Origin: a virus
Length of the DNA: 22,017 bases
Strand: one strand, 5' to 3'
IMG/VR virus record: IMGVR_UViG_3300017987_000396
Location: 1 to 22,017 of that record
How positions within the stretch are numbered: position 1 is the first letter of the stretch; each line of letters begins with the position of its first letter. The translations under genes were made by a program, and so were the position numbers. Positions 1 through 22,017 of this stretch are shown here, piece after piece. The notes below the pieces were generated by a model. The model had not been told where the DNA came from and did not search any database. It saw only the letters and a list, made by a program, of their open reading frames with translations.

Positions 1-1548
1 CTTCCACGCTGCTGCTCTCTTGGAGATCTCCCTCTCGTATTTCTGGCGACTGCCTCGCGGTGTGGCCAACCGAATACTCATATCCTCCTGCGACTCCTCC
101 TGTGGAGGGGCCTCCTCGGTCTGGTCAGGGGTTTCCTCAACCTCAGCCGTGCCTGGATCCGCCTCAGACTCCTGTTCTTCCGACTCCCGTGTTGGGATCC
201 TCAACTGTTTCAGCAACTTCAGTTGGTCAATCATGGACGTGAGAGGGTTCTCTGGCAGATTCCCCTTTTCGTACTCGACGATCATCTTCAGTACCTCGGT
301 CAACACATCCATGTTCTCTTGGCTCATGGCGCCTGGGACGATCCTGGCTGGTGGCGCCGTCGGACCGAAGTTCGCAAGCACCAATGGAGGAAGGATCTGC
401 TGGCTGATCTGCTCGAAGAGAATCTTCTGGAGGTTCAACGAGATCATGTCCGCCACACCTGACTGGACCTGGACCATGGCATATGCTCCGACACTCTTAC
501 CCTCGATCAAACGCTTCTCTGGCTGAAGGCAGGCTCTCATGATGAGAATGGACAGATGCTCCAGCACCTCCAAGAAAACAGCTTGCCTCATGTCGTCTTC
601 CAATAGGGAGATCTGCCACTTCTGCTCTTTCGTTTCCAGATCGATATCGAATGGCAAGACCACGACACCATGACCCCTGACAGTCTTGCAGGTGTCGAGC
701 ATGACATCGAGGTTGTCCTTAGACACCGCGTCGACACCCTGAGATGTTCCCTTGGGAGCTCTACCGATGATGGGCGGATCTCCCAAGCGCTCCAGGTACC
801 GCAACATGAACTGCATCGTGTTCACTTTTGCCCACCACGGATCGTAGCACTGCTCCAGCCTTCCCTCTCCTGAGTAGTCGCCCCATCGAACTCGTGGCAT
901 GGTAACTACCGCCCCCTTGTCGATGGTCTCACCACTCGGATCGATCTCAATTGTCACTTTCCCACATTTGAACCCTGCCAGCTCTCCCTTCTTGATGACA
1001 AACTCCGCTTTGGAAGGATCTACGTCGAACAACTCCTTGTACGTCACAGCATTCGACACTACCGTGATTTCTTCATCCTTCTCGCCCGTCCTGATCTCCA
1101 CGTCCTTCACAACGTAGACCTTCTCGAACGCCTGGAACCCATACGCGACTGCGTCAACGGCCGCTGAGATGAACGGAGCCCACACTGGTCTCAACGCTCC
1201 CTCCAGGAAAGCTGCAATATCCCCATCGCTGCACTCGATAGCCCACTCGCTTCCAGAGATCGGACCTGCCAACGCTTGCATAGCAAAGTTCACGTCAGGG
1301 TCCCGCATCATTTTCTTCTTGGTGTCGGGCTTGATATCGTTGTCATACGCCTCACCACCAAATTCCCCCATGAAGTCGGATCCTGTACCGATCCCCTTGA
1401 CCATTGACCCCTCTTTGATTTTCATTCCCGCCTTCTGGAGTTCCTTCGAGGCTGCTGCGAAATGCTCGTTTACTCTCCGACTGACTGTCGGGTCAAGGCC
1501 CTCAGTAAGATCTCGGGCCACTCGTTCTAACTGGAGGTCGCTCGACAT
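1..1548 (-). CDS. Portal protein, DUF935-like (partial, runs off left edge)
   Basis: An open frame of 516 codons starts at ATG 1548 and has no stop before the window edge, so the C-terminus is missing. The start has a GAGAGGAG ribosome site and overlaps the end of the terminase gene by 47 bases. Residues 81-105 (RDPDVNFAMQALAGPISGSEW) and the middle (PWWAK near 237, GDPPIIGRAPKGTSQG at 256-271) resemble portal proteins of the DUF935/Mu gp29-like class. Portals form the dodecameric ring through which DNA enters the head and to which terminase docks. Gene order HTH-terL-portal supports this. A highly acidic E/Q/P-rich stretch at about 455-489 separates the portal-like body from a basic tail that continues out of view. 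Family recognised by eye, not by search. Confidence 0.75.
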   Translation of the reverse strand, partial: MSSDLQLERVARDLTEGLDPTVSRRVNEHFAAASKELQKAGMKIKEGSMVKGIGTGSDFMGEFGGEAYDNDIKPDTKKKMMRDPDVNFAMQALAGPISGSEWAIECSDGDIAAFLEGALRPVWAPFISAAVDAVAYGFQAFEKVYVVKDVEIRTGEKDEEITVVSNAVTYKELFDVDPSKAEFVIKKGELAGFKCGKVTIEIDPSGETIDKGAVVTMPRVRWGDYSGEGRLEQCYDPWWAKVNTMQFMLRYLERLGDPPIIGRAPKGTSQGVDAVSKDNLDVMLDTCKTVRGHGVVVLPFDIDLETKEQKWQISLLEDDMRQAVFLEVLEHLSILIMRACLQPEKRLIEGKSVGAYAMVQVQSGVADMISLNLQKILFEQISQQILPPLVLANFGPTAPPARIVPGAMSQENMDVLTEVLKMIVEYEKGNLPENPLTSMIDQLKLLKQLRIPTRESEEQESEADPGTAEVEETPDQTEEAPPQEESQEDMSIRLATPRGSRQKYEREISKRAAAWK

Positions 1549-3103
1549 GGCTTTCTCCTCTCTGCGATTGGATCGGTGCAGGACCCATCGTTCTTGGTTC
1601 GCCCATCGCTACGACTTTACCCTGAGCAGGCTCGTACTTCAAGTGCTGGTCGGCCATGAACAGCGCCATGGCCATGTCATCATGGGCTGCTGCTCCGAAT
1701 TGATTCAGTTCGTGACACAGTTGATCGATTAGCTCTCTTGTCCTTTCTCCACGGTACGGGAAGATGTACTCCTTATTCTCCAATCGGACGCTTAGACCCG
1801 CTGTACGGCTCTTGAGCTGGACCTTATGAATGTAGCTCGTGTTGTGGGATCGAATGGGCAAGTCCAGCTCCTCCCTCGCATGGGCAGCATAGTAGTGTTG
1901 CACTCCTACAGTCTCGACAATGATGATATCGGGCTGGTGCTTCTCGTACTGATACTTGGCCGCGGACAGCCATCCTCTCGGTGTAAGTCCCCTCTGGCGC
2001 CAAACCTCGGCTATCTGGCGTTCATTCTCAGGAGTCAACCCGATGGTGGCACATGCGTAGTAATCCGAGTCCTTCCGACGTGCATCCTCTGGATTGTCGA
2101 TACCCGCTACATCCCAGGCCTGAACTACGTATTGAAGTCCAAGCTCCCTGGCTGGTCCCATTTCAAGATCGACCCCCTTCTCCCTGGCCCACTGTAGCCA
2201 GTTCTCAGGAACAGGTGCGTTCTCATCGGACATCGGCATGTTCCGCTTATCCCTGTCATACGCCGATCTGTTCTGTTTCATCAGCGCCTTGAGCCGTCTC
2301 GCTGGCCATAGCTCAGGCCACCTGGACTTGAACTGGCCATCCTCTTTGTAGTCGGCCCTCTCGTATTTCGTGGGGACGTAGAACTCGGGATGCTCGGTCT
2401 CTAGCTCGCCATAGAGGTCCCCAAAGTGCTTACGTGTTCCTACCATCAGGAAGGGCGTGTTGGCTTCTCGACATCCACCTAGAGTCTGCCAGAACCACTC
2501 CTTGACTTTGGCCCGACGCTCTGGTGTGCCCGTATTCTCCAGGGTCAGAATGTCATCGCAGATAATGACATCGGCTCGCATTCCAGTAACACCACTACCG
2601 ATACCGACGGCCTCCAGCGTGGCATCAACCAGACTGCGATTCTTCCTCTGTTGGATCGTGAACCTGGTATCGTTCCAAGGACGCCTGGACTGGAATCGTC
2701 CGAACTCTTGATGAAGCTTCGTGTTCATCTCCAGCTCGTTCCTCACGGCTGCTACCCTCGTCTGCGCCTGGCCCTTCGTATCAGACGCCAACTTGATGCG
2801 TATGTCGGGGTTCATACACATCAACCAGATCGGAAGGATGAACGAGAAGCATGTGGACTTCGCAAAGTCCTTGGGAGACTTCAACAGGAAATTCTGCCCC
2901 TCAGCAGCTATCTGCATCCATTCGTGGTGGAATGGTTTGGGAGGGACAGGAAGTTTCCATAGACCAAACTCGACCGCAAAGTTAATCGGATCGAGGAGCC
3001 GCTCCTGGGCCTTCGTCATCTGGAGTGCTATCTGCGTCAGGTACTCCTCCGACATCTGTACGTTCGGAGTCCTCAACAGATCGCTCGCCGGTATCCCTTG
3101 CAT
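1502..3103 (-). CDS. terL: Terminase large subunit (packaging ATPase-nuclease)
   Basis: This 533-residue protein is the motor that pumps DNA into the prohead and cuts the concatemer. Visible ATPase motifs are a Walker A variant SPKDFAKS at about 77-84, the coupling stretch GSGVTGMRAD at 169-178, Walker B VIICDD at 179-184 and VGTRKHFGDLYGEL near 221-234. The nuclease half shows acidic positions QAWDVAGID (about 328-336), IVETVG (about 396-401) and AHDDMAMALF (about 473-482). Length is normal for the family. I chose ATG 3103 behind GGAGAG. An in-frame TTG at 3109 and later ATGs are possible, because this start overlaps the upstream gene by 122 bases. Confidence 0.93.
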   Translation of the reverse strand: MQGIPASDLLRTPNVQMSEEYLTQIALQMTKAQERLLDPINFAVEFGLWKLPVPPKPFHHEWMQIAAEGQNFLLKSPKDFAKSTCFSFILPIWLMCMNPDIRIKLASDTKGQAQTRVAAVRNELEMNTKLHQEFGRFQSRRPWNDTRFTIQQRKNRSLVDATLEAVGIGSGVTGMRADVIICDDILTLENTGTPERRAKVKEWFWQTLGGCREANTPFLMVGTRKHFGDLYGELETEHPEFYVPTKYERADYKEDGQFKSRWPELWPARRLKALMKQNRSAYDRDKRNMPMSDENAPVPENWLQWAREKGVDLEMGPARELGLQYVVQAWDVAGIDNPEDARRKDSDYYACATIGLTPENERQIAEVWRQRGLTPRGWLSAAKYQYEKHQPDIIIVETVGVQHYYAAHAREELDLPIRSHNTSYIHKVQLKSRTAGLSVRLENKEYIFPYRGERTRELIDQLCHELNQFGAAAHDDMAMALFMADQHLKYEPAQGKVVAMGEPRTMGPAPIQSQRGESHVERPPVRTSGPRSY

Positions 3104-3587
3104 GTCCAAATCTCTCCATCAACATCTGCTTCGTAAACTGGACCACTTCAGGCAACTGCTCTCCACTGGCTGGAGTATCGGTCTCGAACGTGAACTTGCT
3201 CCTGCTGTGTCCCTCCATCGTTCCCGACCCTTGCCGTCTCATCTCGGCTGAGAAGTCCATCATGGCCTTGATAAGATCGATCTTTACTGGACTCGGTAGA
3301 TCGGACCAGTCCTGTTTCTTCAGGACATTCTCCTGGAGCCATTGAGCCAGGGACGCACCATCCACTACTGTCTCTCGCCATTTCAGCAGGGAAACGACTT
3401 CTCTCCAGTCCTCCGGCGTGAACTTCCCCTCGAGACCGTGGTTCATGTGACGTGAGAGGGTCTCCCTTGCCATTCCTACTGCTTTTGCTGCACGGGTGAT
3501 GTTCCCATGTCTTGAAAACTCGATCACCGCTCCTTGATACTCTGGAGGCCAGTCTCGGATCATCAGGCGGATCTTGTCATCATTCAA
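2982..3587 (-). CDS. terS: HTH protein, probable terminase small subunit
   Basis: The 201-residue product begins at TTG 3587, which overlaps the TGA of the upstream gene (TTGA), with GGGAGG 8 bases before it; no in-frame ATG sits near that site. Residues 28-48 (GNITRAAKAVGMARETLSRHM) form a typical helix-turn-helix like those of phage small terminases and Fis/resolvase-type domains. The C-terminal 40 residues are acidic and likely disordered. Position directly before terL, with overlap, is the main support for the small-terminase role, which is to bind the packaging site and load TerL. An unrelated DNA-binding regulator is the alternative. Confidence 0.65.
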   Translation of the reverse strand: MNDDKIRLMIRDWPPEYQGAVIEFSRHGNITRAAKAVGMARETLSRHMNHGLEGKFTPEDWREVVSLLKWRETVVDGASLAQWLQENVLKKQDWSDLPSPVKIDLIKAMMDFSAEMRRQGSGTMEGHSRSKFTFETDTPASGEQLPEVVQFTKQMLMERFGHARDTGERSVEDSERTDVGGVPDADSTPDDEGPGAAPRSD

Positions 3588-6879: not shown

Positions 6880-7047
6880 CTACCCTTCGCGGGTGCCCTC
6901 TTGAGATGGCTTCTTCTTCCTCCGGCGGCCGCGGTATCCCTTGGACGCCTTTCCCTCCATGGCATCTTCCAGATCCATCAACTCCTTCTCGGACATGCCC
7001 GTGATCGCTTGGGCAGCTCGGCCCTTGATGACAAATGCCTTTCTCAT
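6880..7047 (-). CDS. Small basic protein (55 residues)
   Basis: This gene begins at ATG 7047 with CAGGAG six bases upstream and ends at TAG 6882-6880. The product starts MRKAFVIKGRAAQAI, has an acidic helix (MSEKELMDLEDAMEG) and then a very basic stretch (YRGRRRKKK), suggesting nucleic-acid binding. It is the first gene after a 158-base structured gap, and its ribosome site can be sequestered in a hairpin (see 7051-7098). No family is recognised. Confidence 0.6.
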   Translation of the reverse strand: MRKAFVIKGRAAQAITGMSEKELMDLEDAMEGKASKGYRGRRRKKKPSQEGTREG

Positions 7048-7050
7048 GAG

Positions 7051-7098
7051 GGTCTCCTGACGTGGAGACGGGCCTGAGAGCTTTTCTCAGGCCACGTC
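7051..7098 (-). promoter_or_regulatory. Alternative RNA structures over the 55-residue gene's ribosome site
   Basis: On the minus strand, GTCTCC (7069-7064) can pair with GGAGAC (7057-7052), hiding the GGAG ribosome site of the gene at 7047. A competing pairing joins GACGTGG (7098-7092) to CCACGTC (7065-7059), which would break that hairpin. Between them lies a perfect 9-bp hairpin, GGCCTGAGA/TCTCAGGCC (7093-7085 with 7079-7071). Mutually exclusive stems of this sort are typical of translational switches. Seen in sequence; function inferred. Confidence 0.5.
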
Positions 7099-7117
7099 GC
7101 CTTGACTGTGGTGTGAT

Positions 7118-7127
7118 GGGGGGGGGG
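7118..7127. repeat. Homopolymer G10 (C10 on minus strand)
   Basis: Ten consecutive G on the plus strand within the non-coding gap. Such runs are prone to polymerase slippage and to sequencing error. The length may vary between copies. Confidence 0.9.
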
Positions 7128-7128
7128 T

Positions 7129-7195
7129 GAGGGGCCCCGACTTGTAGATCGGCCTATGGCCGCTTCTGGAAACACAGAAAGGAGCGGGACCCCTC
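7129..7195 (-). ncRNA. Candidate antisense RNA or structured leader with anti-leader loop
   Basis: On the minus strand 7195-7186 pairs with 7138-7129 over 10 bp (one wobble), closing a 47-base loop. The loop contains, at 7185-7168, GCTCCTTTCTGTGTTTCC. This is the exact complement of GGAAACACAGAAAGGAGC, the leader and ribosome site shared in close form by eight genes of this window. A small CGGCC/GGCCG hairpin (7162-7150) follows. A TATAAT lies at 7211-7206, placing a start near 7199. No start codon follows the sense copy on the plus strand, so it is not a ribosome site there. Whether an RNA is made, and its 3' end, are unknown. Confidence 0.45.
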
Positions 7196-7205
7196 GGAGG
7201 TCTGT

Positions 7206-7211
7206 ATTATA
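7206..7211 (-). promoter_or_regulatory. Consensus -10 hexamer TATAAT without clear -35
   Basis: TATAAT reads on the minus strand at the very end of the transglycosylase-like gene. At 16-18 bases upstream the hexamers (for example CGAAGA) match TTGACA poorly, and no TGn extension is present. If used, it would drive the structured gap and the 55-residue and ASCH genes, perhaps with an activator. Confidence 0.4.
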
Positions 7212-7800
7212 CCCCACCCCTGAAAATTTCTTCGCTGTGGTCATGGAACGTTTCCAGAAAGTCATTGATATATTCAACCATACGTGATGACTCTTTGTCA
7301 GGTCCACCGTGATGAAGTGCCACCAACTCCTTCAGGTACATCATGACTTTCGCGTCTGGCGTACGTAGCATCTCCCTCGGTTGGGGTCGGTCGTTGTACC
7401 CGTAGTACCACAGATACAGGATACGGTTGCATGCCTGGCCTCGGATGGTTGTCATGTCTGGAAACAGCGCCTCTGATCTCAGACTGAACCCTGGATCGAA
7501 ACGGTCATTCTCGGAACGGCGTATCGCTAGCCCATGCAGATCCTTGTACGCCATGAACCCGTCGATCGCGGCGCCGTACATGATCTGGAATGGCCCGATC
7601 TCTCCTGCAGCCCCCTCGATGTTCTCCAGGTCACGTCGCTCCCACTCCCCTCGGCTCTCTACCCAGGCAATCGAGTAGAGGAACCTGGCCGTGTCCTCGG
7701 AGGTCAATCCCAACAGCGTCCACCTGTCATGTCCGTTCGTGATGCAGACGCTATCCAACGTCGCTTGCCATATCGCTGCTCTCAGCCCTCCTGAATACAT
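7207..7800 (-). CDS. Lysozyme/lytic transglycosylase-like protein
   Basis: The 197-residue protein has IAWVESRGEW (44-53, with E48 as the candidate catalytic acid), EGAAGEIGPFQIMYG (62-76) and LHHGGPDKE (162-170). These match the SLT/goose-lysozyme pattern E-S-R ... G-x-x-G-x-x-Q-I ... N-G-G-P. Such enzymes cut the glycan of peptidoglycan during lysis or DNA entry. There is no signal peptide. Start is ATG 7800 with AAGGAGG four bases upstream, overlapping the previous gene by 19 bases. The neighbours are small zinc-finger-like genes, not obvious lysis genes. The catalytic role is inferred from motifs only. Confidence 0.65.
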   Translation of the reverse strand: MYSGGLRAAIWQATLDSVCITNGHDRWTLLGLTSEDTARFLYSIAWVESRGEWERRDLENIEGAAGEIGPFQIMYGAAIDGFMAYKDLHGLAIRRSENDRFDPGFSLRSEALFPDMTTIRGQACNRILYLWYYGYNDRPQPREMLRTPDAKVMMYLKELVALHHGGPDKESSRMVEYINDFLETFHDHSEEIFRGGV

Positions 7801-10655: not shown

Positions 10656-11756
10656 CTAGAACGTGCTGTTTGCGATTTCATCCAGCTCGTTGTTCATGTC
10701 CTTATCGAACTCTTCCTCATCACCGTCGTGAAGAGGCTCGAACCCCTTGCCGTCTACGGGGTCTGGCTTCTTGTTGGCTTCGGCTTCCCTCGCCTCACGC
10801 TTTTCCTTCTGCTTCTGCGCTTTGGTCTTTCCCTTGGTTTTCTCCTTGACCTCGTCCGGCGACAAGATCGCCTTCATCACTCGCTCGACTTCTTTGTCAA
10901 TGTCGGACCACTGCTTGTCAGTGAGTGGGTTCTCCGCTATCCACTCGGACGCCCACACTGCCTCATCCGAGATCTCCTCATGTTTCCTCAGCGCACCAGT
11001 CAACAAGGACAGGACTTTTTCCTTGTCCTTGTACTTGGCCATCATCTTCTCGTAGATCGCCTTCGCCTTCTTCGGCGGTTCAACTCGTTCCTTTTGGTTC
11101 CCGTTGATCTTCACTTTCCGTCTAGCTTGTTCCGCGATCTCAGTTCCCCTCTCGCTGGACCACGCTTTGCCCGATACTGTCGCCTCCTTGTTGGTTCCGT
11201 TGTGGGTCACATGGGACGCGTCATCATCGTAGCCTGGGGGCTGGAGTCCGAAGATCGCTTCGAGACAGTATCGACATGCGTACGTGACTGACCCGCCGAC
11301 CTTCTGGATCTCCAGGGGTTCCTTGACAATGACCTCGAACGACTTGATGACCCACTGGCCAGACTTGTGCGTGATCCACGTCTCGATCCTCAGCCGTCCC
11401 TTCCGAGGATCCCCCACCATCTCAGGGAACTGATTGACTGCCAGCCCACTCTTCGAGAGAGGTCCTCGGATCGCATCCCAACACTGGGATATGTCCGCAT
11501 ACCTGTACGAGTACAGGAACTTGCCTTCTCGGTTCTTTACCTCAACCAGGTTGGTCCGCTCGGGAGGAACAATCTCCCCCATGGCATTGGCCATTGCCTC
11601 TGCCCACTTGCCGATCTCAGGAGACATCTCCCGTTGCGACGGCGCCACTACCTCGATGAAAGGATCATCTGGAGGTGGAGCTGTGGCCGTTGCAGCGTTC
11701 CGCTTCAGTTCCCTCTGAACATCATCGTACATCTCCTCACCATTCGCATATGCCAT
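10656..11756 (-). CDS. erf: ERF-family single-strand annealing protein
   Basis: The 366-residue product has, in its N-terminal half, YSYRYADISQCWDAIRGPL, LAVNQFPE, LRIETWITHKSGQWV and GGSVTYACRYCLEAIFGL followed by DDDAS. This is the ERF core known from phage P22, whose proteins form rings that anneal complementary strands. The C-terminal half is a Lys/Glu-rich extension with an acidic end (DGDEEEFDKD), probably for SSB or partner contacts. I chose ATG 11756, eight bases after AAAGGA of a GGAAACACAGAAAGGA leader; the ATG at 11765 overlaps that site. With the SbcC-like gene just downstream it forms a recombination unit. Confidence 0.9.
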   Translation of the reverse strand: MAYANGEEMYDDVQRELKRNAATATAPPPDDPFIEVVAPSQREMSPEIGKWAEAMANAMGEIVPPERTNLVEVKNREGKFLYSYRYADISQCWDAIRGPLSKSGLAVNQFPEMVGDPRKGRLRIETWITHKSGQWVIKSFEVIVKEPLEIQKVGGSVTYACRYCLEAIFGLQPPGYDDDASHVTHNGTNKEATVSGKAWSSERGTEIAEQARRKVKINGNQKERVEPPKKAKAIYEKMMAKYKDKEKVLSLLTGALRKHEEISDEAVWASEWIAENPLTDKQWSDIDKEVERVMKAILSPDEVKEKTKGKTKAQKQKEKREAREAEANKKPDPVDGKGFEPLHDGDEEEFDKDMNNELDEIANSTF

Positions 11757-11789
11757 GCCGCGCATCCTTTCTGTGTTTCCTGCTCGCCC

Positions 11790-11984: not shown

Positions 11985-12235
11985 AGCGAACTCCTTTCTA
12001 CATCCTGCCACTGGGCTTCAAGCCACTCGAAGATCGTCCTGGACTCCTCCATGCACAGGTTTGCCGCAGCGATCGCAGCAAAGCCCTGATCCTCTGGAGT
12101 CCTCTCGCCGTTGGCTACTGCATCCTTCCCTCGAGACCGAACCTTCAGGAGGAAGGATACTTCATCCACGATCTTGTGGACGGTCGACTCACTACCGACA
12201 AAGCTCTCGACGAGACGAATTAGGGATTGGTTCAT
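11981..12235 (-). CDS. Hypothetical protein
   Basis: An 84-residue, mostly helical protein from ATG 12235, with GAAAGGAG five bases upstream at the end of the conserved leader. It is the first gene after the promoter at 12275-12303. No domain is recognised; the C-terminal half is amphipathic (AAIAAANLCMEESRTIFEWLEAQWQDVE). Confidence 0.55.
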   Translation of the reverse strand: MNQSLIRLVESFVGSESTVHKIVDEVSFLLKVRSRGKDAVANGERTPEDQGFAAIAAANLCMEESRTIFEWLEAQWQDVERSSL

Positions 12236-12241
12236 TGGCGC

Positions 12242-12303
12242 TCCTTTCTGTGCGGTGTTTCCATGTCCAGAAGTATTGTAACCTTTTCTCGCCTATCGAT
12301 CAA
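12242..12303 (-). promoter_or_regulatory. Sigma70-type promoter P4 and conserved leader
   Basis: TTGATC (12303-12298), 17-base spacer ending GAGAAAAGGT, then TACAAT (12280-12275). The -35 overlaps the stop codon of the phosphoesterase gene, so the promoter is embedded in a coding end. Downstream, ATGGAAACACCGCACAGAAAGGAGC forms the conserved leader and ribosome site of the 12235 gene. Confidence 0.75.
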
Positions 12304-13193
12304 GCATCAAGATCAACCATCTTGACGGGTACTAGCCCGTTCATTCTCATCTCGACCAGGCGGCGCCTCTCAAATTCCCAGATGCCCATACGGATGATTT
12401 CCTTCGATGGTCCTCGGACCTTCATGGGAACTGCACTGCCCAGGTTGACGATCTCGATCCCCTTGTACTTCCACCACCCAATCCTATGAGTATGACCCCC
12501 GATAATCACATCGACCCGCATCGCCTTCGCGGCTTCTACAGCGCAATCCAGGTAGTGCTGATCTTCCAGACGGTCCCCTCTCTTTTGAATGAGCCTCAGA
12601 GGCGCTTTAAGCGTACCAAGGACCCACTCGTCTATCATTGGGTGTACTCCAGTTTCGAGTGCCCGTCCGTTCTTCAAAAGGGCCTCTCCAAGCCTCGCAC
12701 GTAGCCAGCCTGGATCATTCCAGATCGGATCGAACTGGTGCCAGTGCATGCAGAGATAGCTGTACCCCTCCCCGTAGACGTCATCTATTGCGACTCCGCC
12801 TGGGATAATGAGGTCTCCCTTCTTCACCAGGAAGGTGCGCTCCTGTCGCTGCTGGATGCTGTCCGTCCCTTGCGTGTCCGCTGGCTTGGCTCCCTTGTTC
12901 CGCCAGTCGTGGTTCCCCGGAATGATGGTGAGCCCAGCTCGCCTCAGCATCATGATGATCTCGGCGTGTTCCCGCATGGCTTCGGACAACTTCCCACAGT
13001 AGTCGTACATGTCGCCTATTCCGTAGGTGTGCCAATCATTCGCTACAGCCAGAGCCGCATACCGGTTCATGAGCTGCTTCCCAGAACACCGGGACCCCGA
13101 CAAGTCCACTACATAGCGGTCCAAGTCGGGGTCCCCCCAATGCCAGTCGCTTACTGCACGTCTCGCCTTCTTCTGTCCTTCCACAATTCCCAT
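12300..13193 (-). CDS. Metallophosphoesterase (calcineurin-like)
   Basis: The 297-residue protein shows the metal-ligand series of the superfamily: DWH at 16-18, GDMYD at 60-64, GNHDW at 93-97, MHWHQFD in the middle and IIGGHTHR near the C-terminus. Members include Mre11/SbcD nucleases, phosphodiesterases and protein phosphatases. Location in the same block as the ERF and SbcC-like genes makes a DNA-end nuclease role attractive, though other genes and a promoter lie between. I chose ATG 13193 with AAAGGA upstream because it keeps the DxH motif; it overlaps the preceding small gene by 43 bases. A few downstream GTG codons are alternatives. Confidence 0.85.
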   Translation of the reverse strand: MGIVEGQKKARRAVSDWHWGDPDLDRYVVDLSGSRCSGKQLMNRYAALAVANDWHTYGIGDMYDYCGKLSEAMREHAEIIMMLRRAGLTIIPGNHDWRNKGAKPADTQGTDSIQQRQERTFLVKKGDLIIPGGVAIDDVYGEGYSYLCMHWHQFDPIWNDPGWLRARLGEALLKNGRALETGVHPMIDEWVLGTLKAPLRLIQKRGDRLEDQHYLDCAVEAAKAMRVDVIIGGHTHRIGWWKYKGIEIVNLGSAVPMKVRGPSKEIIRMGIWEFERRRLVEMRMNGLVPVKMVDLDA

Positions 13194-15178: not shown

Positions 15179-15487
15179 TCAGCCTTGGTAGGCCAGCACG
15201 GTTCCGCCATCGTGGAACTCAGCATAGAAGCCGAGATCGCTGAGGGCCTTCACGAGTTTCGGATGGATGCCGAACTCATACCCCAACTTGTAGAGCCCGT
15301 ACTCGTCGTACATGGTCGCTGCTGGCAACTCGTCGATGGTTCCGCCCTCAGCTGCATCACCCAGATGGATCGCTCCAGGCCTGCCCCAGAACGACGCCTC
15401 CCTGATCCCGTTGATCCCAGGGAACATCCTGTGCAGCTTCCTGGCTGCTCCTACCGCCTTCTTCTTCGCTTTCTGCTCTGCATTCAT
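15179..15487 (-). CDS. Hypothetical protein with conserved leader
   Basis: The 102-residue protein starts at ATG 15487, six bases after AAAGGA in GGAAACACAGAAAGGATC, a copy of the conserved leader placed between genes without a promoter of its own. The N-terminus is basic (NAEQKAKKKAVGAARKLHRMF); the rest has Gly-rich turns (GIREASFWGRPGAIHLGDAAEGG). No recognised family. Confidence 0.55.
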   Translation of the reverse strand: MNAEQKAKKKAVGAARKLHRMFPGINGIREASFWGRPGAIHLGDAAEGGTIDELPAATMYDEYGLYKLGYEFGIHPKLVKALSDLGFYAEFHDGGTVLAYQG

Positions 15488-15522
15488 GGTCGATCCTTTC
15501 TGTGTTTCCGTTTCGGCCCCAA

Positions 15523-15822
15523 CTACCTGGGCAATAACTCCTGAAATCCCTCGTGCCCACCCTCAAGCACAACTCGATACACTACGTTGTACCGCCTACC
15601 CGAAAGTCGGATCCGATGAAGGTAAACCTCGGCAATCGGGCCAACTACATACCCGCCAACATCATCGTGTTTCATCATCTTGGTCTTTTTCCCGATGGCT
15701 TGCTCCATGTGCGTCAGGATGCTCACTGCAAACCGCCTACGATTTGCGATGTCCAGATTGCGGACCTGCTCGACTACTTCCTCTACCGTGGAGAAGGGGC
15801 GGTGGGTTGCGACTTCGGCCAT
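15523..15822 (-). CDS. Hypothetical protein
   Basis: The 99-residue product begins at ATG 15822, five bases after GAAAGGAG at the end of the full leader downstream of promoter P2. The frame is open upstream through the leader (METWKTQKGAS), but the ribosome site indicates the internal ATG. It has an N-terminal helix (TVEEVVEQVRNLDIANRRRFAVSILTHME) and a beta-rich C-terminus (GGYVVGPIAEVYLHRIRL, YNVVYRVVLEGG). Not recognised. Confidence 0.55.
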   Translation of the reverse strand: MAEVATHRPFSTVEEVVEQVRNLDIANRRRFAVSILTHMEQAIGKKTKMMKHDDVGGYVVGPIAEVYLHRIRLSGRRYNVVYRVVLEGGHEGFQELLPR

Positions 15823-15895
15823 GCTAGCTCCTTTCTGTGTTTTCCATGTTTCCATCTTACACTTATACTTTAACCTTTTCTGTCTCATGCGTCAA
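15823..15895 (-). promoter_or_regulatory. Sigma70-type promoter P2 and conserved leader
   Basis: TTGACG (15895-15890), 17-base spacer ending CAGAAAAGGT, then TAAAGT (15872-15867). The leader carries ATGGAAAC twice, then ACACAGAAAGGAGC before the start codon at 15822. It contains three GGA triplets, the last in the ribosome site. Confidence 0.8.
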
Positions 15896-16070
15896 GCGTT
15901 TTTGATAGACCGAGTCAAACCCCCTGCTCTTTTCTCGATCTTTTTTCATCTTCACCTGAAGGGGCCTAGAATGCCTCCAGACTCCACCGTTCCCACAGGG
16001 GTATCCTCTGTCCATAACAGGCTCGATCTTGCTGAATTGCTTCTCCTGGCCACGTAGGACTTCCGTTCCC

Positions 16071-16128: not shown

Positions 16129-16434
16129 TCAGGCGCCCAGCAAATCCTCCAGCTTCCTTGCTGCCTCGGAAGCAAAGTACTTCGCCCTCTCCACGTCCTG
16201 CTTGATCCCAGTCAAGCAGTCGGCATCCAAAGCTGACTCGGCCGCCGGTTCCCCGGGGGAGGTCTCGTTGGTCCACCAGGCCATCAGCGCAGTGCGGTTG
16301 AAACGGTACGCCTTGCCCACCTTGACGTGGGGAATGTCCTCCCTCTTCTTGCACCACCTGGCCAGGGTCGGGTACTGGATCCCCAACAATGCCGCGGCCT
16401 CTTTCAGGTTCAACTGCTCCTTCTGTCCTTCCAT
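16129..16434 (-). CDS. Excisionase/MerR-type HTH protein
   Basis: The 101-residue protein has LNLKEAAALLGIQYPTLARWCKKREDIPHVKVGKAYRFNRTALMAWW (about 8-54), the winged HTH_17 domain of phage excisionases, Cox/Xis-like and AlpA-like proteins: an HTH, a wing with KVGKAYRF, then the closing Trp-rich helix. The C-terminus is a helix. No integrase is in view, so a transcription or DNA-architecture role is as likely as excision. Start ATG 16434, with GAGGA overlapping the previous stop. Last gene before the terminator. Confidence 0.75.
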   Translation of the reverse strand: MEGQKEQLNLKEAAALLGIQYPTLARWCKKREDIPHVKVGKAYRFNRTALMAWWTNETSPGEPAAESALDADCLTGIKQDVERAKYFASEAARKLEDLLGA

Positions 16435-16441
16435 AGCATCC

Positions 16442-17170
16442 TCACTTTGGTACGCGGATCGACACCTGGCGCCCGGCTTTCGAGTACTGACCCGTCCGAA
16501 CTACGTCCTGGCCCCACTTCTTCCGCAACTTCCTCGTCTGTTCATGAAGCATCTCGTTCGAGCGGACAGACGCATAACCGCCCTTGTTGGTGAACACTGT
16601 CCACACTGCTGTGAACCGTGTGTCCTGCCATACTCTCCGATGCCTGGCCAACGTCTGCAAGGTGAAGTCAATGTCGGTGTGGTACTGTAGCGACTCGTCG
16701 TAACGCTGGCCATCGTCGATGTAGCCGACAAGTCCTCCCCAACAGATCGTCCTGAGCATGAAGGGGTTGAAGTCCTGATACCGCATGGGATAGCCCGTGC
16801 CCAGGAAGAAGAGATTGGTCCCCAGGTCCGAAGCGCACTGACACACCTGATGCAAACAGTTCACCAGGAGGTCCTCAGACATCCTCAATAGTCTGGGCCC
16901 TGGCTCCTGCAGGACAATCCCAACGTAGTGGAGATCATCATCTACGTTGACCACGCACTCGACGTCCACTACGTTGTCCAACATCCAGTTCTTGATCCGC
17001 CCAAGATGACCCACTCCGCAAGGATGGCCAATCACTGGACGGCCTGTCTTCTGCTCGTACTCCTCGACCTCGTCCTCTGCTACCAGGAACTCGACATGAT
17101 TCGGAAACACCTTCATCACGCCCTGAGCTACTTGATCTGCTCGGCCATGACTTGGACATATGATCCTCAC
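16442..17170 (-). CDS. TAGT-like glycosyltransferase (GT-A fold)
   Basis: The 242-residue product begins MRIICPSHGRADQVAQGVMK, has EFLVAEDEVEEYE, then VVNVDDDLHYV (74-84) with the metal-binding DDD, PFMLRTICWGGLVGYIDD, YHTDIDFTLQTL and a C-terminal GQYSKAGRQVSIRVPK. This order fits the TET-associated glycosyltransferases, phage GT-A enzymes linked to glycosylation of modified DNA bases; related GT-A enzymes act elsewhere. No TET/JBP dioxygenase or base-modifying partner is in the window. GTG 17170 overlaps the ParB-domain gene stop (GTGA), with GGGAGG upstream; the longer open frame is inside the previous gene. Confidence 0.65.
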   Translation of the reverse strand: MRIICPSHGRADQVAQGVMKVFPNHVEFLVAEDEVEEYEQKTGRPVIGHPCGVGHLGRIKNWMLDNVVDVECVVNVDDDLHYVGIVLQEPGPRLLRMSEDLLVNCLHQVCQCASDLGTNLFFLGTGYPMRYQDFNPFMLRTICWGGLVGYIDDGQRYDESLQYHTDIDFTLQTLARHRRVWQDTRFTAVWTVFTNKGGYASVRSNEMLHEQTRKLRKKWGQDVVRTGQYSKAGRQVSIRVPK

Positions 17171-17799
17171 GTGTCCCTCCCTTTCAGCAGATCCATGAGG
17201 ACCTTCCCATCGAGAACCCTGCCCAGACCCACTCGCGGCTTCTGAGTCCATCGGTTCTTCACCAGGCCCATGCCTAGCGCAGTCTGGATGTGAGCAAAGT
17301 CCACCTCGTCATCGAAGACAAAGACTACGTAGTTGTGCTTCTCGTTGAAGCGCGGTGAGAGGTCCTCAGCAGCCTGAGTTCGCGGCTCTGACGGCGCGCT
17401 CTTGGTTCCCTTCTCTGCAAGCAACTCGTTCAACCTGAATGCGTCTACAAGCCCCTTTCCGATCTCGCTTGCCTCAAGTTCCTCGATGACTCCCCTCACG
17501 TCCTTCGTGTACCGTCCCTGGAGAGTGGAGGAGTTGAGCGCAATCATGAGCGCCTTTTCCTTCTCCTCCGGAACATCGACCACATTGACCCAGACCTTCT
17601 CCACTCCTCTCGACCTGAGAACCAGGAGACGCTTCTCGCCACCCAGGAGGTACTCCGTCCTCTTGTTCCACACTAGCGGAACAACCTGATCGAACTCCTC
17701 CAGCGAACGGCCAAGTGCCTCGCGGTTCTCCTCTGGCATCACCCTTGGGTTGTTTGGGTGAAACCTGATCTCAGCAACCTTCATCTCCTGAACATCCAC
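17167..17799 (-). CDS. ParB N-terminal (ParBc) domain protein
   Basis: The 210-residue protein contains NNPRVMPEENREALGRSLEEFDQVVPLVW, YLLGGEKRLLVLRSRG (a GGEKR version of the usual GxxR box) and ALMIALNSSTLQGRYT (about 13-100), typical of phage ParB-like proteins, some of which are nucleases, NTP-dependent switches or fused to DNA methylases. The C-terminal part (HNYVVFVFDDEVDFAHIQTALGM) is a ferredoxin-like add-on seen in that group. No HTH is evident, so plasmid-style partition is unlikely. GTG 17799 lies five bases after GAAAGGAG. It overlaps the glycosyltransferase gene by four bases. Confidence 0.8.
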   Translation of the reverse strand: MDVQEMKVAEIRFHPNNPRVMPEENREALGRSLEEFDQVVPLVWNKRTEYLLGGEKRLLVLRSRGVEKVWVNVVDVPEEKEKALMIALNSSTLQGRYTKDVRGVIEELEASEIGKGLVDAFRLNELLAEKGTKSAPSEPRTQAAEDLSPRFNEKHNYVVFVFDDEVDFAHIQTALGMGLVKNRWTQKPRVGLGRVLDGKVLMDLLKGRDT

Positions 17800-17812: not shown

Positions 17813-18448
17813 TCAGAACAGCGACGGCTCTTTGTGTGTCGTGGAGTCCTTCTTCTTCCTTCCGTTGGACCCCATGAACGACCAATCCTTCCAATGTTGA
17901 GAAGCCGACTTCGCTACCTTCTCAGCCCTCTCGTAGTATTCGTCGGCATACGGCTCACCCTCTGGGATCTTATTCTCGAGACGATCACCCTCACCCCAGA
18001 AGTCCTCCATGGTCTTGCCCATCTGACGGCCACGCTTCGTGTGTTTGTCCAGAGCGAACTCGGGGATCTCAAGCCTCAGACCCTCCTGTCGCAGTCCCGC
18101 CATCAACGCTTGGTAGTTATGGATCTGCCTGGACTTTTGTGCCCTGCACAGCGCGTAGACCACGTGAGAAACGCAGAAATGAGTATCCCCAGTCCGTCTC
18201 TTGTCAGCTACCAACTCCTGGAACCATCGATAGCACACATCCACTAACTGGAGAATGTCCGGCGCCATCTCTTCCAGAGCAATCACCCTCAGTCGATACC
18301 ACAGATACTTCGAGTATCCATTCGAGAGTTCCATCGCCCAGTACAGCGCATCCAACTCCATCCCACGCCTGATGGATTTCTGGAGGGCACTCGACACCTC
18401 GTCGAGAGGGTATCCCCCCACCGTTCTGATCTCGTAACTTCCGCCCAT
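17813..18448 (-). CDS. RarA/MgsA C-terminal-like protein without ATPase domain
   Basis: The 211-residue product resembles the C-terminal tetramerisation/clamp-loader-like part of RarA (MgsA): LDEVSSALQKSIRRGMELDALYWAMEL, then YLWYRLRVIALEEMAPDILQLVD and HFCVSHVVYALCRAQKSRQIH (about 15-108). The P-loop AAA domain that normally precedes it is absent, and no frame upstream encodes one. The C-terminal half is specific to this protein (GEGDRLENKIPEGEPYADEYY, basic GSNGRKKK). It may bind SSB or a replication protein. ATG 18448, five bases after GAAAGGAG of the conserved leader. First gene after promoter P3. Confidence 0.55.
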   Translation of the reverse strand: MGGSYEIRTVGGYPLDEVSSALQKSIRRGMELDALYWAMELSNGYSKYLWYRLRVIALEEMAPDILQLVDVCYRWFQELVADKRRTGDTHFCVSHVVYALCRAQKSRQIHNYQALMAGLRQEGLRLEIPEFALDKHTKRGRQMGKTMEDFWGEGDRLENKIPEGEPYADEYYERAEKVAKSASQHWKDWSFMGSNGRKKKDSTTHKEPSLF

Positions 18449-18512
18449 TTCGACTCCTTTCTGTGAGGTTTCCACTTTGTCCTATTCTAACCTTTTCTCA
18501 ACTATTGGTCAA
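18449..18512 (-). promoter_or_regulatory. Sigma70-type promoter P3 and conserved leader
   Basis: TTGACC (18512-18507), 17-base spacer ending GAGAAAAGGT, then TAGAAT (18489-18484), a near-consensus promoter. The leader GTGGAAACCTCACAGAAAGGAG precedes ATG 18448. Confidence 0.85.
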
Positions 18513-18533
18513 GCGTTCTGCTTCTTCCTCTGA

Positions 18534-20214: not shown

Positions 20215-20430
20215 CTAGCTCCTTTCCACAATGGGCTTGCGGACGATCTCGATACATTCGACTGGATCCAGGTCTCCAGCCTCACACCGCTCGGCGGCTT
20301 CGATCCAGTCCAGGTAAGTCCCGTACGGCGTACGATACTCGATCGTGTGAGTGGGAGGATCCTGGGCTGTGCGGTCATCAACGGTCTCGAACTGTCGGAC
20401 CATCTCAGGGGTGACTACCAGGGCTTTCAT
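20215..20430 (-). CDS. Small hypothetical protein
   Basis: The 71-residue protein (MKALVVTPEMVRQFETVDDRTAQ...) starts at ATG 20430, five bases after GAAAGGAG; the upstream in-frame ATG lies in the conserved leader and has no ribosome site. It contains HTIEYRTPYGTYLDWIEAAERCEAGDLDPVECIEIV. First gene of the DUF932 operon. Not recognised. Confidence 0.55.
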   Translation of the reverse strand: MKALVVTPEMVRQFETVDDRTAQDPPTHTIEYRTPYGTYLDWIEAAERCEAGDLDPVECIEIVRKPIVERS

Positions 20431-20503
20431 CGCGGCTCCTTTCGTGTGTTTCCATGTTTCCATCTTACACTCATACTTTAACCTTTTCTATATCATCAGT
20501 CAA
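20431..20503 (-). promoter_or_regulatory. Sigma70-type promoter P1 and conserved leader
   Basis: TTGACT (20503-20498), 17-base spacer ending TAGAAAAGGT, then TAAAGT (20480-20475). Leader with two ATGGAAAC copies and CACACGAAAGGAG before ATG 20430. It is the near twin of P2. Confidence 0.8.
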
Positions 20504-20683
20504 GCCAAGTTGATAGACCGAGTCAAACCCCCTACTCTTTTCTCGATCTTTTTTCGATACTTGCGAGACTGTGCCTAGAATGCCTCCAGACTCCACCAAG
20601 ATCGCAGGGGTATCCTTTGTCATTGAGGTGCTCGATCTTGCTGAATCGCTTCCAGGGCTTACGAATGGCCTTGTTTCACCAGG

Positions 20684-21464: not shown

Positions 21465-21730
21465 TACCAGACCCTCCCAACTGCCGCGAAGCGATCGAAC
21501 TCAAAGTCGTCCAAGTCGATACACCGGTGCGGTTCCTCCAGCTCCTCCACCATCGCCTCATGATGATCCAGCCAGTCCTGCAGAGCATCGGTGCCCTGCC
21601 TGATGGCCTCGACCTCCCTGGAGAGGTCCTCGACCTTCATCAGACCGCGGTTGGCGATCAGAAAGTCAAACGACTTCACCATGCCCGTGGCGATGACCTT
21701 GCCTCTGTGAATTCCTGACAACTCTCTCAC
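21464..21730 (-). CDS. Hypothetical protein
   Basis: The 88-residue product (MRELSGIHRGKVIATGMVKSF...) is read from GTG 21730, five bases after ACACAGAAAGGAG, the conserved ribosome site. A longer frame upstream passes through a terminator hairpin and is not used. Helical middle (VEDLSREVEAIRQGTDALQDWLDHHEAMVEEL). No domain recognised. Confidence 0.55.
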   Translation of the reverse strand: MRELSGIHRGKVIATGMVKSFDFLIANRGLMKVEDLSREVEAIRQGTDALQDWLDHHEAMVEELEEPHRCIDLDDFEFDRFAAVGRVW

Positions 21731-21750
21731 ACTGACTCCTTTCTGTGTCC

Positions 21751-21785
21751 CAACAAGAAAGGGGAGGGACCCTCTGCCCCTCCCC
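21751..21785 (-). terminator. Terminator-like hairpin between two coupled genes
   Basis: GGGGAGGG (minus 21785-21778) pairs with CCCTCCCC (21768-21761), nine-base loop, followed by TTTCTTGTTG. Only 30 bases separate it from the next start, with no room for a promoter, so it is either leaky or regulated. Confidence 0.75.
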
Positions 21786-21797
21786 ACACTCACTCGA

Positions 21798-21950
21798 TTA
21801 CGCTTGATCCATGTACTGCCTGGCTGTCCTCATGCAGATCCTGGCGTCCCGAATGGATCGGACCATATCGTCCATGTCCGTTGCATCGAGGGCGTCCTGC
21901 CAGTGGCTCGGCGTCATCGCCCTGCTCTCGCCCTTGGTTGCTGTTGCCAT
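21798..21950 (-). CDS. Small hypothetical protein (50 residues)
   Basis: ATG 21950 lies six bases after GAAGGGAG of the conserved leader; the stop is TAA at 21800-21798. The product starts MATATKGESRAMTPSHWQDA and ends in a helix (MVRSIRDARICMRTARQYMDQA). A longer open frame in another register over the same bases has no ribosome site. Not recognised. Confidence 0.6.
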   Translation of the reverse strand: MATATKGESRAMTPSHWQDALDATDMDDMVRSIRDARICMRTARQYMDQA

Positions 21951-22017
21951 GCTGACTCCCTTCTGTGTGTTTCCATGTTTCCATCTTACACTATCATTAT
22001 GCCCTATTCTGTCTCGA
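21951..22017 (-). promoter_or_regulatory. Partial promoter P5 and conserved leader
   Basis: CATAAT (22001-21996) follows CAGAATAGGG; the -35 would lie at or beyond the window edge. The leader repeats ATGGAAAC twice and ends CACACAGAAGGGAG before ATG 21950. The order matches P1 and P2. Confidence 0.65.

Follow-up and report, generated by a model that had tools for sequence, protein, structure and literature searches.

A candidate structured phage RNA complementary to the start leaders shared by eight of its genes

We found that a bacterial virus appears to encode a small folded RNA that carries the complement of a ribosome-binding leader shared by eight of its early genes, and that could therefore shut off those genes together when the virus moves to its late stage. 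One relative keeps the arrangement, and some mycobacterial viruses have a similar one. We analyzed a window of 22,017 nucleotides, the whole of IMG/VR virus record IMGVR_UViG_3300017987_000396. The main genes run on the minus strand, from small genes at the right end, through Mre11-like, Erf-like and SbcC-like genes, to terminase (1502-3109) and a long open reading frame at 1-1548 that we read as the portal, based on its position and our reading of the sequence. There was no close DNA match to the window among 50,697 phage records. Protein matches to Arthrobacter and Microbacterium phages suggest an actinobacterial host, although this is an inference. A weak, below-cutoff match of 16442-17251 to a TET-associated glycosyltransferase family (TAGT) could point to modified phage DNA.

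A first-pass annotation, made from the sequence alone, had described an 18-base antisense copy of the leader within a stem-loop and proposed that an RNA made there could block translation of several early operons at once, switching the phage program when transcription reaches the region. The observation was confirmed, with corrections to the stem length and the loop. The exact complement of GGAAACACAGAAAGGAGC is at 7185-7168 on the minus strand, inside a folded 159-nt intergenic element located between the early genes and those leading to terminase. Allowing up to 3 mismatches, the 18-mer occurs four times in the window, compared to 0.03 expected, and the other three occurrences are leaders. 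All eight genes named in the annotation have the leader, GGAAACACAGAAAGGAG, or a variant of it directly before the start codon. No leader is identical to the 18-mer: two differ at 1 base, one differs at 2, and the rest have small indels or more changes. The features of the element and its predicted targets, all on the minus strand, are as follows.

7206..7211 (-), TATAAT, candidate -10 box of the antisense RNA, overlapping the stop codon of the upstream gene 7207-7800; no -35 box was found
7062..7199 (-), candidate structured antisense RNA; the 5' end is inferred about 7 nt after TATAAT, and the 3' end is uncertain and may continue into the downstream operon
7168..7185 (-), antisense segment GCTCCTTTCTGTGTTTCC, complement of the consensus start leader
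7129..7195 (-), stem P1, 7195-7185 paired with 7139-7129, 11 bp
7150..7162 (-), hairpin P2, 7162-7158 paired with 7154-7150
7067..7098 (-), hairpin P3, 7093-7085 paired with 7079-7071, extended by 7098-7095 paired with 7070-7067
21954..21974 (-), predicted target leader of the gene starting at 21950
21735..21752 (-), predicted target leader of the gene starting at 21730
20435..20453 (-), predicted target leader of the gene starting at 20430
18454..18473 (-), predicted target leader of the gene starting at 18448, whose ortholog in the relative is 81% identical and also has a leader
15827..15844 (-), predicted target leader of the gene starting at 15822
15492..15509 (-), predicted target leader of the gene starting at 15487, with no promoter directly upstream
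12240..12262 (-), predicted target leader of the gene starting at 12235
11763..11780 (-), predicted target leader of the Erf-like gene starting at 11756, with no promoter directly upstream

The stem is one pair longer than the 10 bp first described. No gene of the main set lies in 7048-7206. The minus strand of the 159-nt gap folds at -67.7 kcal/mol, compared to -47.5 ± 4.2 kcal/mol for shuffled sequences (z -4.8), whereas the plus strand gives a z of only -2.2. The antisense motif, described at first as held in a loop, is not a simple open loop. In the predicted fold about half of it lies in a weak inner hairpin, and opening this hairpin costs about 6.6 kcal/mol. The linker of the element contains a run of ten C on the minus strand (7118-7127), partly kept in the relative as CCCC plus pyrimidines; C-rich linkers could pair with G-rich sites. 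A scan for promoters found no full sigma-70 site. There was no Rfam match at the gathering score in the window, and only sub-threshold hits in the element loci.

Because two of the eight leaders have no promoter directly upstream, the motif goes with translation starts rather than with promoters. The promoters at 12274-12305, 15866-15897, 18483-18514 and 20474-20505 share a conserved spacer (minus strand GCTTGAC...AGAAAAGGTTAnAnTA), so a common recognition beyond the -35 and -10 boxes is possible. A duplicated stretch of about 220 bases (15827-16043 and 20435-20652; 88% then 76% identical) carries promoter and leader in front of two different genes.

To determine if the element is conserved, we searched for relatives using the terminase and found one, IMGVR_UViG_3300017963_000119 (43,362 bases, terminase 75% identical), referred to here as G001. 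The only other terminase match, at 22%, was too remote to use. Searches of IMG/VR with the 197-aa neighbor protein, the SbcC-like protein, the RNA pattern and the leader pattern returned no relative or only G001. GTDB genomes gave none, and GenBank phages gave no usable DNA match to the window or the element. Exact 16-mers of the leader in IMG/VR gave 29 stretches with one match each, which we read as chance.

G001 has one reverse copy of the motif, at the place equivalent to position 7200, in an intergenic gap and inside the same kind of stem (GCGGGGCCCCATCCCTTCTGTGTTTCCAATTGG...ATTGGGGCCCCGC). It is preceded by TGATATAAC where the window has TATAAT; the equivalent box is TATAAC, preceded by TG. 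We compared helices P1, P2 and P3 pair by pair. Of 29 modeled pairs, 19 were unchanged, 5 were changed on one side, 5 were changed on both sides, and none were broken. P1 had 2 two-sided and 1 one-sided change, P2 had 2 two-sided changes, and P3 had 1 two-sided and several one-sided changes. The helices were chosen by eye from the two predicted folds, so the count of zero broken pairs leans towards the structure, and the two-sided changes are the stronger evidence. Read as the plus strand, 5 pairs would be lost because they are G-U. Gaps of 1 and 2 bases between the two genomes exclude a conserved reading frame. Based on these two genomes, this looks like a conserved RNA structure of the minus strand. 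In G001, but not in the window, P3 is terminator-like with a U-rich tail. It is very unlikely that the plus strand is the functional one, as a decoy RNA that carries the leader in a stem and titrates a leader-binding protein or ribosomes, given the pairs that would be lost, the weaker fold, and the location of the conserved TATAA box on the minus strand.

The antisense segment is the best-conserved stretch between these two diverged phages. The loop is kept (CYUUCUGUGUUUCC), and its one internal change tracks the leaders. G001 has its own family of leaders, five of them behind TTGAC-type promoters, such as GGAAACATGGAACCGGACACAGAAGGGAG. The leader core is AAAGGA in the window and AAGGGA in G001, and the loop differs in the matching way (UCCUUU in the window and UCCCUU in G001). 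Mean duplex energies were better for cognate than for swapped pairs: -29.2 kcal/mol for the window loop with window leaders, -26.6 for the window loop with G001 leaders, -25.3 for the G001 loop with G001 leaders, and -22.2 for the G001 loop with window leaders. Whether a relative keeps the antisense match with compensatory changes in the leaders had been named beforehand as a test, and the one relative found passed it, although the compensatory change is a single event. One leader gene is a clear ortholog with leaders in both phages (start 18448), and a second (12235) is a weak match. The Erf-like gene has a leader in the window, but we saw none before its G001 counterpart. A mimic of the 16S rRNA 3' end was considered, as CUCCUUUCU would be shared, but the UCCCUU of G001 follows its leaders instead.

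We assessed the specificity of the predicted pairing by sliding the loop of the window along its coding strand. The eight leaders took ranks 1-7 and 9. The eighth was a helix-turn-helix (HTH_17) protein gene (16129-16434) whose first codons, ATGGAAGGACAGAAGGAG, resemble the leader. Fourteen of fifteen other gene starts checked had energies of -10.8 to -23.3 kcal/mol, compared to -26.9 to -31.4 for the leaders. Ordinary Shine-Dalgarno sites are weaker predicted targets, with one exception, gene 8183, at -26.3. Among 8,800 20-mers taken every 5 bases from both strands, the best mean energy to the eight leaders belonged to the element itself, ahead of the antisense of any single leader. The segment thus resembles the complement of the leader consensus, which an inverted copy of one leader would not be expected to give. 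In G001 the loop was about 4.9 standard deviations below the mean on its leaders, but the antisense of its own leaders would do better, so the fit there is good but not optimal. The best predicted target of the G001 loop is the first codons of the SbcC-like gene, ATGGAAACACAGAAGGA, which read like a leader (1394-1410 of the extracted G001 stretch L034).

These results bear on two of the alternatives. It seems very unlikely that the element is a DNA-level site (an operator, or a packaging or replication site) or an inverted leader remnant without function, a leftover leader being one alternative raised in the first-pass annotation. The motif does recur in intergenic DNA, and the element lies on the way to the terminase gene. 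However, the RNA stems covary with G-U pairs, the leaders keep their register with start codons and not with promoters, and a remnant of one leader would not be the best match to all eight. It also seems unlikely, though less so, that the element is a cis-acting 5' leader of the downstream operon (gene start 7047), an attenuator or riboswitch-like structure acting on its own mRNA, with the likeness to the leaders an inherited leftover or coincidence. It lies directly upstream of gene 6880-7047, and the Shine-Dalgarno sequence of that gene (GGAG) can pair with CUCC near the 5' end in the predicted fold. However, a cis structure does not require that the antisense segment be the best-conserved stretch or that it track the leaders, and the downstream gene shows no conservation that we tested.

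An unrelated group of phages shows a parallel. The leaders resemble the start-associated sequences (SAS) of cluster K mycobacteriophages, which are repeated leaders that contain the Shine-Dalgarno sequence and lie directly before many gene starts, some behind promoters (PMC3203893, PMC11373665, PMC12699233). The leaders of the window are likewise conserved beyond the Shine-Dalgarno sequence, but they do not have the SAS consensus, GGGATAGGAGCCC. The 2011 description notes that three K1 genomes have a single SAS on the complementary strand, and leaves open whether SAS are bound by an RNA or a protein (PMC3203893). In Adephagia (JF704105) the reverse SAS lies in the gene 92-93 gap (43448-43879 of the extracted locus L044; loop from record position 58,684) and, on the coding strand, forms the apical loop CCTCCTATCC of a strong predicted hairpin. 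The surrounding element matches 163 mycobacteriophage records. In nine of ten related genomes read for this comparison, the loop is invariant while the outer stem varies; all 90 pair cells stay paired, and two pairs show two-sided changes. A conserved TTGRCG...TAGACT promoter-like sequence precedes the hairpin in most. Published RNA-seq of Adephagia places the start of late transcription in this gap, and the same paper states that the role of SAS is not known (PMC11373665). Thus, in a cultured phage, the antisense-SAS hairpin lies where the late transcript begins. The K1 system differs in that its sequences and structures are unrelated to those of the window and its match is 10 contiguous nt rather than 16-18, and the parts of these papers that we consulted do not propose that the reverse copy is an RNA regulator.

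The parallel has limits, as many cluster K phages have SAS but no matching loop. The same hairpin in Ekdilam, Unicorn, Bryler, Shandong1 and TClif carries C/U-rich loops (CCTCCTTCCC, TTCTCCCTTCCC, TTATTCCCTTCC) with only partial complementarity to SAS. Pixie, ShedlockHolmes, Pharb, SirPhilip, Marshawn, Yuna and LilPharaoh lack the anti-SAS loop, and TM4 has no reverse SAS. We predicted that phages with altered loops (Ekdilam, Unicorn and Shandong1) would have altered SAS. This was not the case: their SAS is the standard GGGATAGGAGCCC, so those loops pair only imperfectly. In a shuffle test of the 72-nt hairpin region, the K1 loops reached p = 0.013-0.043 and the others were not significant. 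The cluster K phages whose SAS we read share one consensus, which leaves no co-variation to be scored. AnnaSerena, a Microbacterium phage with SAS-like leaders, has no reverse copy.

We favor, with moderate confidence, a model in which the minus strand of about 7199-7062 makes a structured RNA, either a short RNA or the 5' leader of the transcript leading into the later genes (terminase and portal). In this model, stem P1 holds the segment complementary to the consensus leader of at least eight upstream (early) genes. When transcription from this point begins, the segment would pair in trans with the leaders, cover the Shine-Dalgarno sequence to within 3-4 nt of the start codon, and block ribosome loading on the whole set at once. 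After opening costs (6.6 kcal/mol for the RNA and 3-10 for the mRNAs), the estimated energy remains favorable for every leader. Our analysis establishes the anatomy of the element, its complementarity, its target specificity by computed energy, and the conservation of fold and complementarity in one relative. Transcription of the RNA, its timing, pairing in the cell, and repression as the outcome are inferred. The proposal in the first-pass annotation is partly supported, and the K1 parallel, with published late transcription from the corresponding spot in Adephagia, fits its suggestion of a switch when transcription reaches this region. It is also possible, though unlikely on present evidence, that pairing occurs but that the main outcome is mRNA decay, premature termination of early transcripts (as for phage P4 CI RNA), or early mRNAs acting as sponges that hold back the RNA. 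The same pairing evidence supports these outcomes, and sequence does not separate them, but the predicted position of pairing over the Shine-Dalgarno sequence favors an initiation block as the first effect.

Phage antisense RNAs are already known. The sar RNA of phage P22 and the c4 RNAs of phages P1/P7 are small phage RNAs that pair with phage mRNA to control its expression (reviewed in PMC12197685). They control a single target (antirepressor), whereas here at least eight leaders spread over 10 kb share the site. The phage P4 CI RNA is a short structured RNA whose exposed segment pairs with repeated complementary sites in phage transcripts. It acts by transcription termination in prophage immunity at few sites, whereas the sites here are Shine-Dalgarno leaders of many genes. 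The cluster A mycobacteriophages L5, D29 and StarStuff also make intergenic small RNAs, of unknown function (PMC5712189); the abundant one comes from the early promoter, and in what we consulted no antisense relation to start leaders is reported. What is new here is a candidate phage antisense RNA aimed at a regulon through a repeated start leader.

A broader and more tentative possibility, which we consider less likely than not, is that this is a general control device of actinobacterium-type phages. Early genes would share a start-associated leader, and a hairpin RNA at the head of the late transcript would carry the matching antisense loop, so that the start of late transcription itself switches off early protein synthesis. 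This would explain what the SAS of cluster K mycobacteriophages, unexplained since 2011, do in at least subcluster K1. One RNA silencing a whole set of phage genes through a repeated ribosome-site leader would be an RNA counterpart of a regulon repressor and a direct link between late transcription and early translation. It gives a testable function for the long-unexplained SAS in cultured, genetically tractable phages such as Adephagia.
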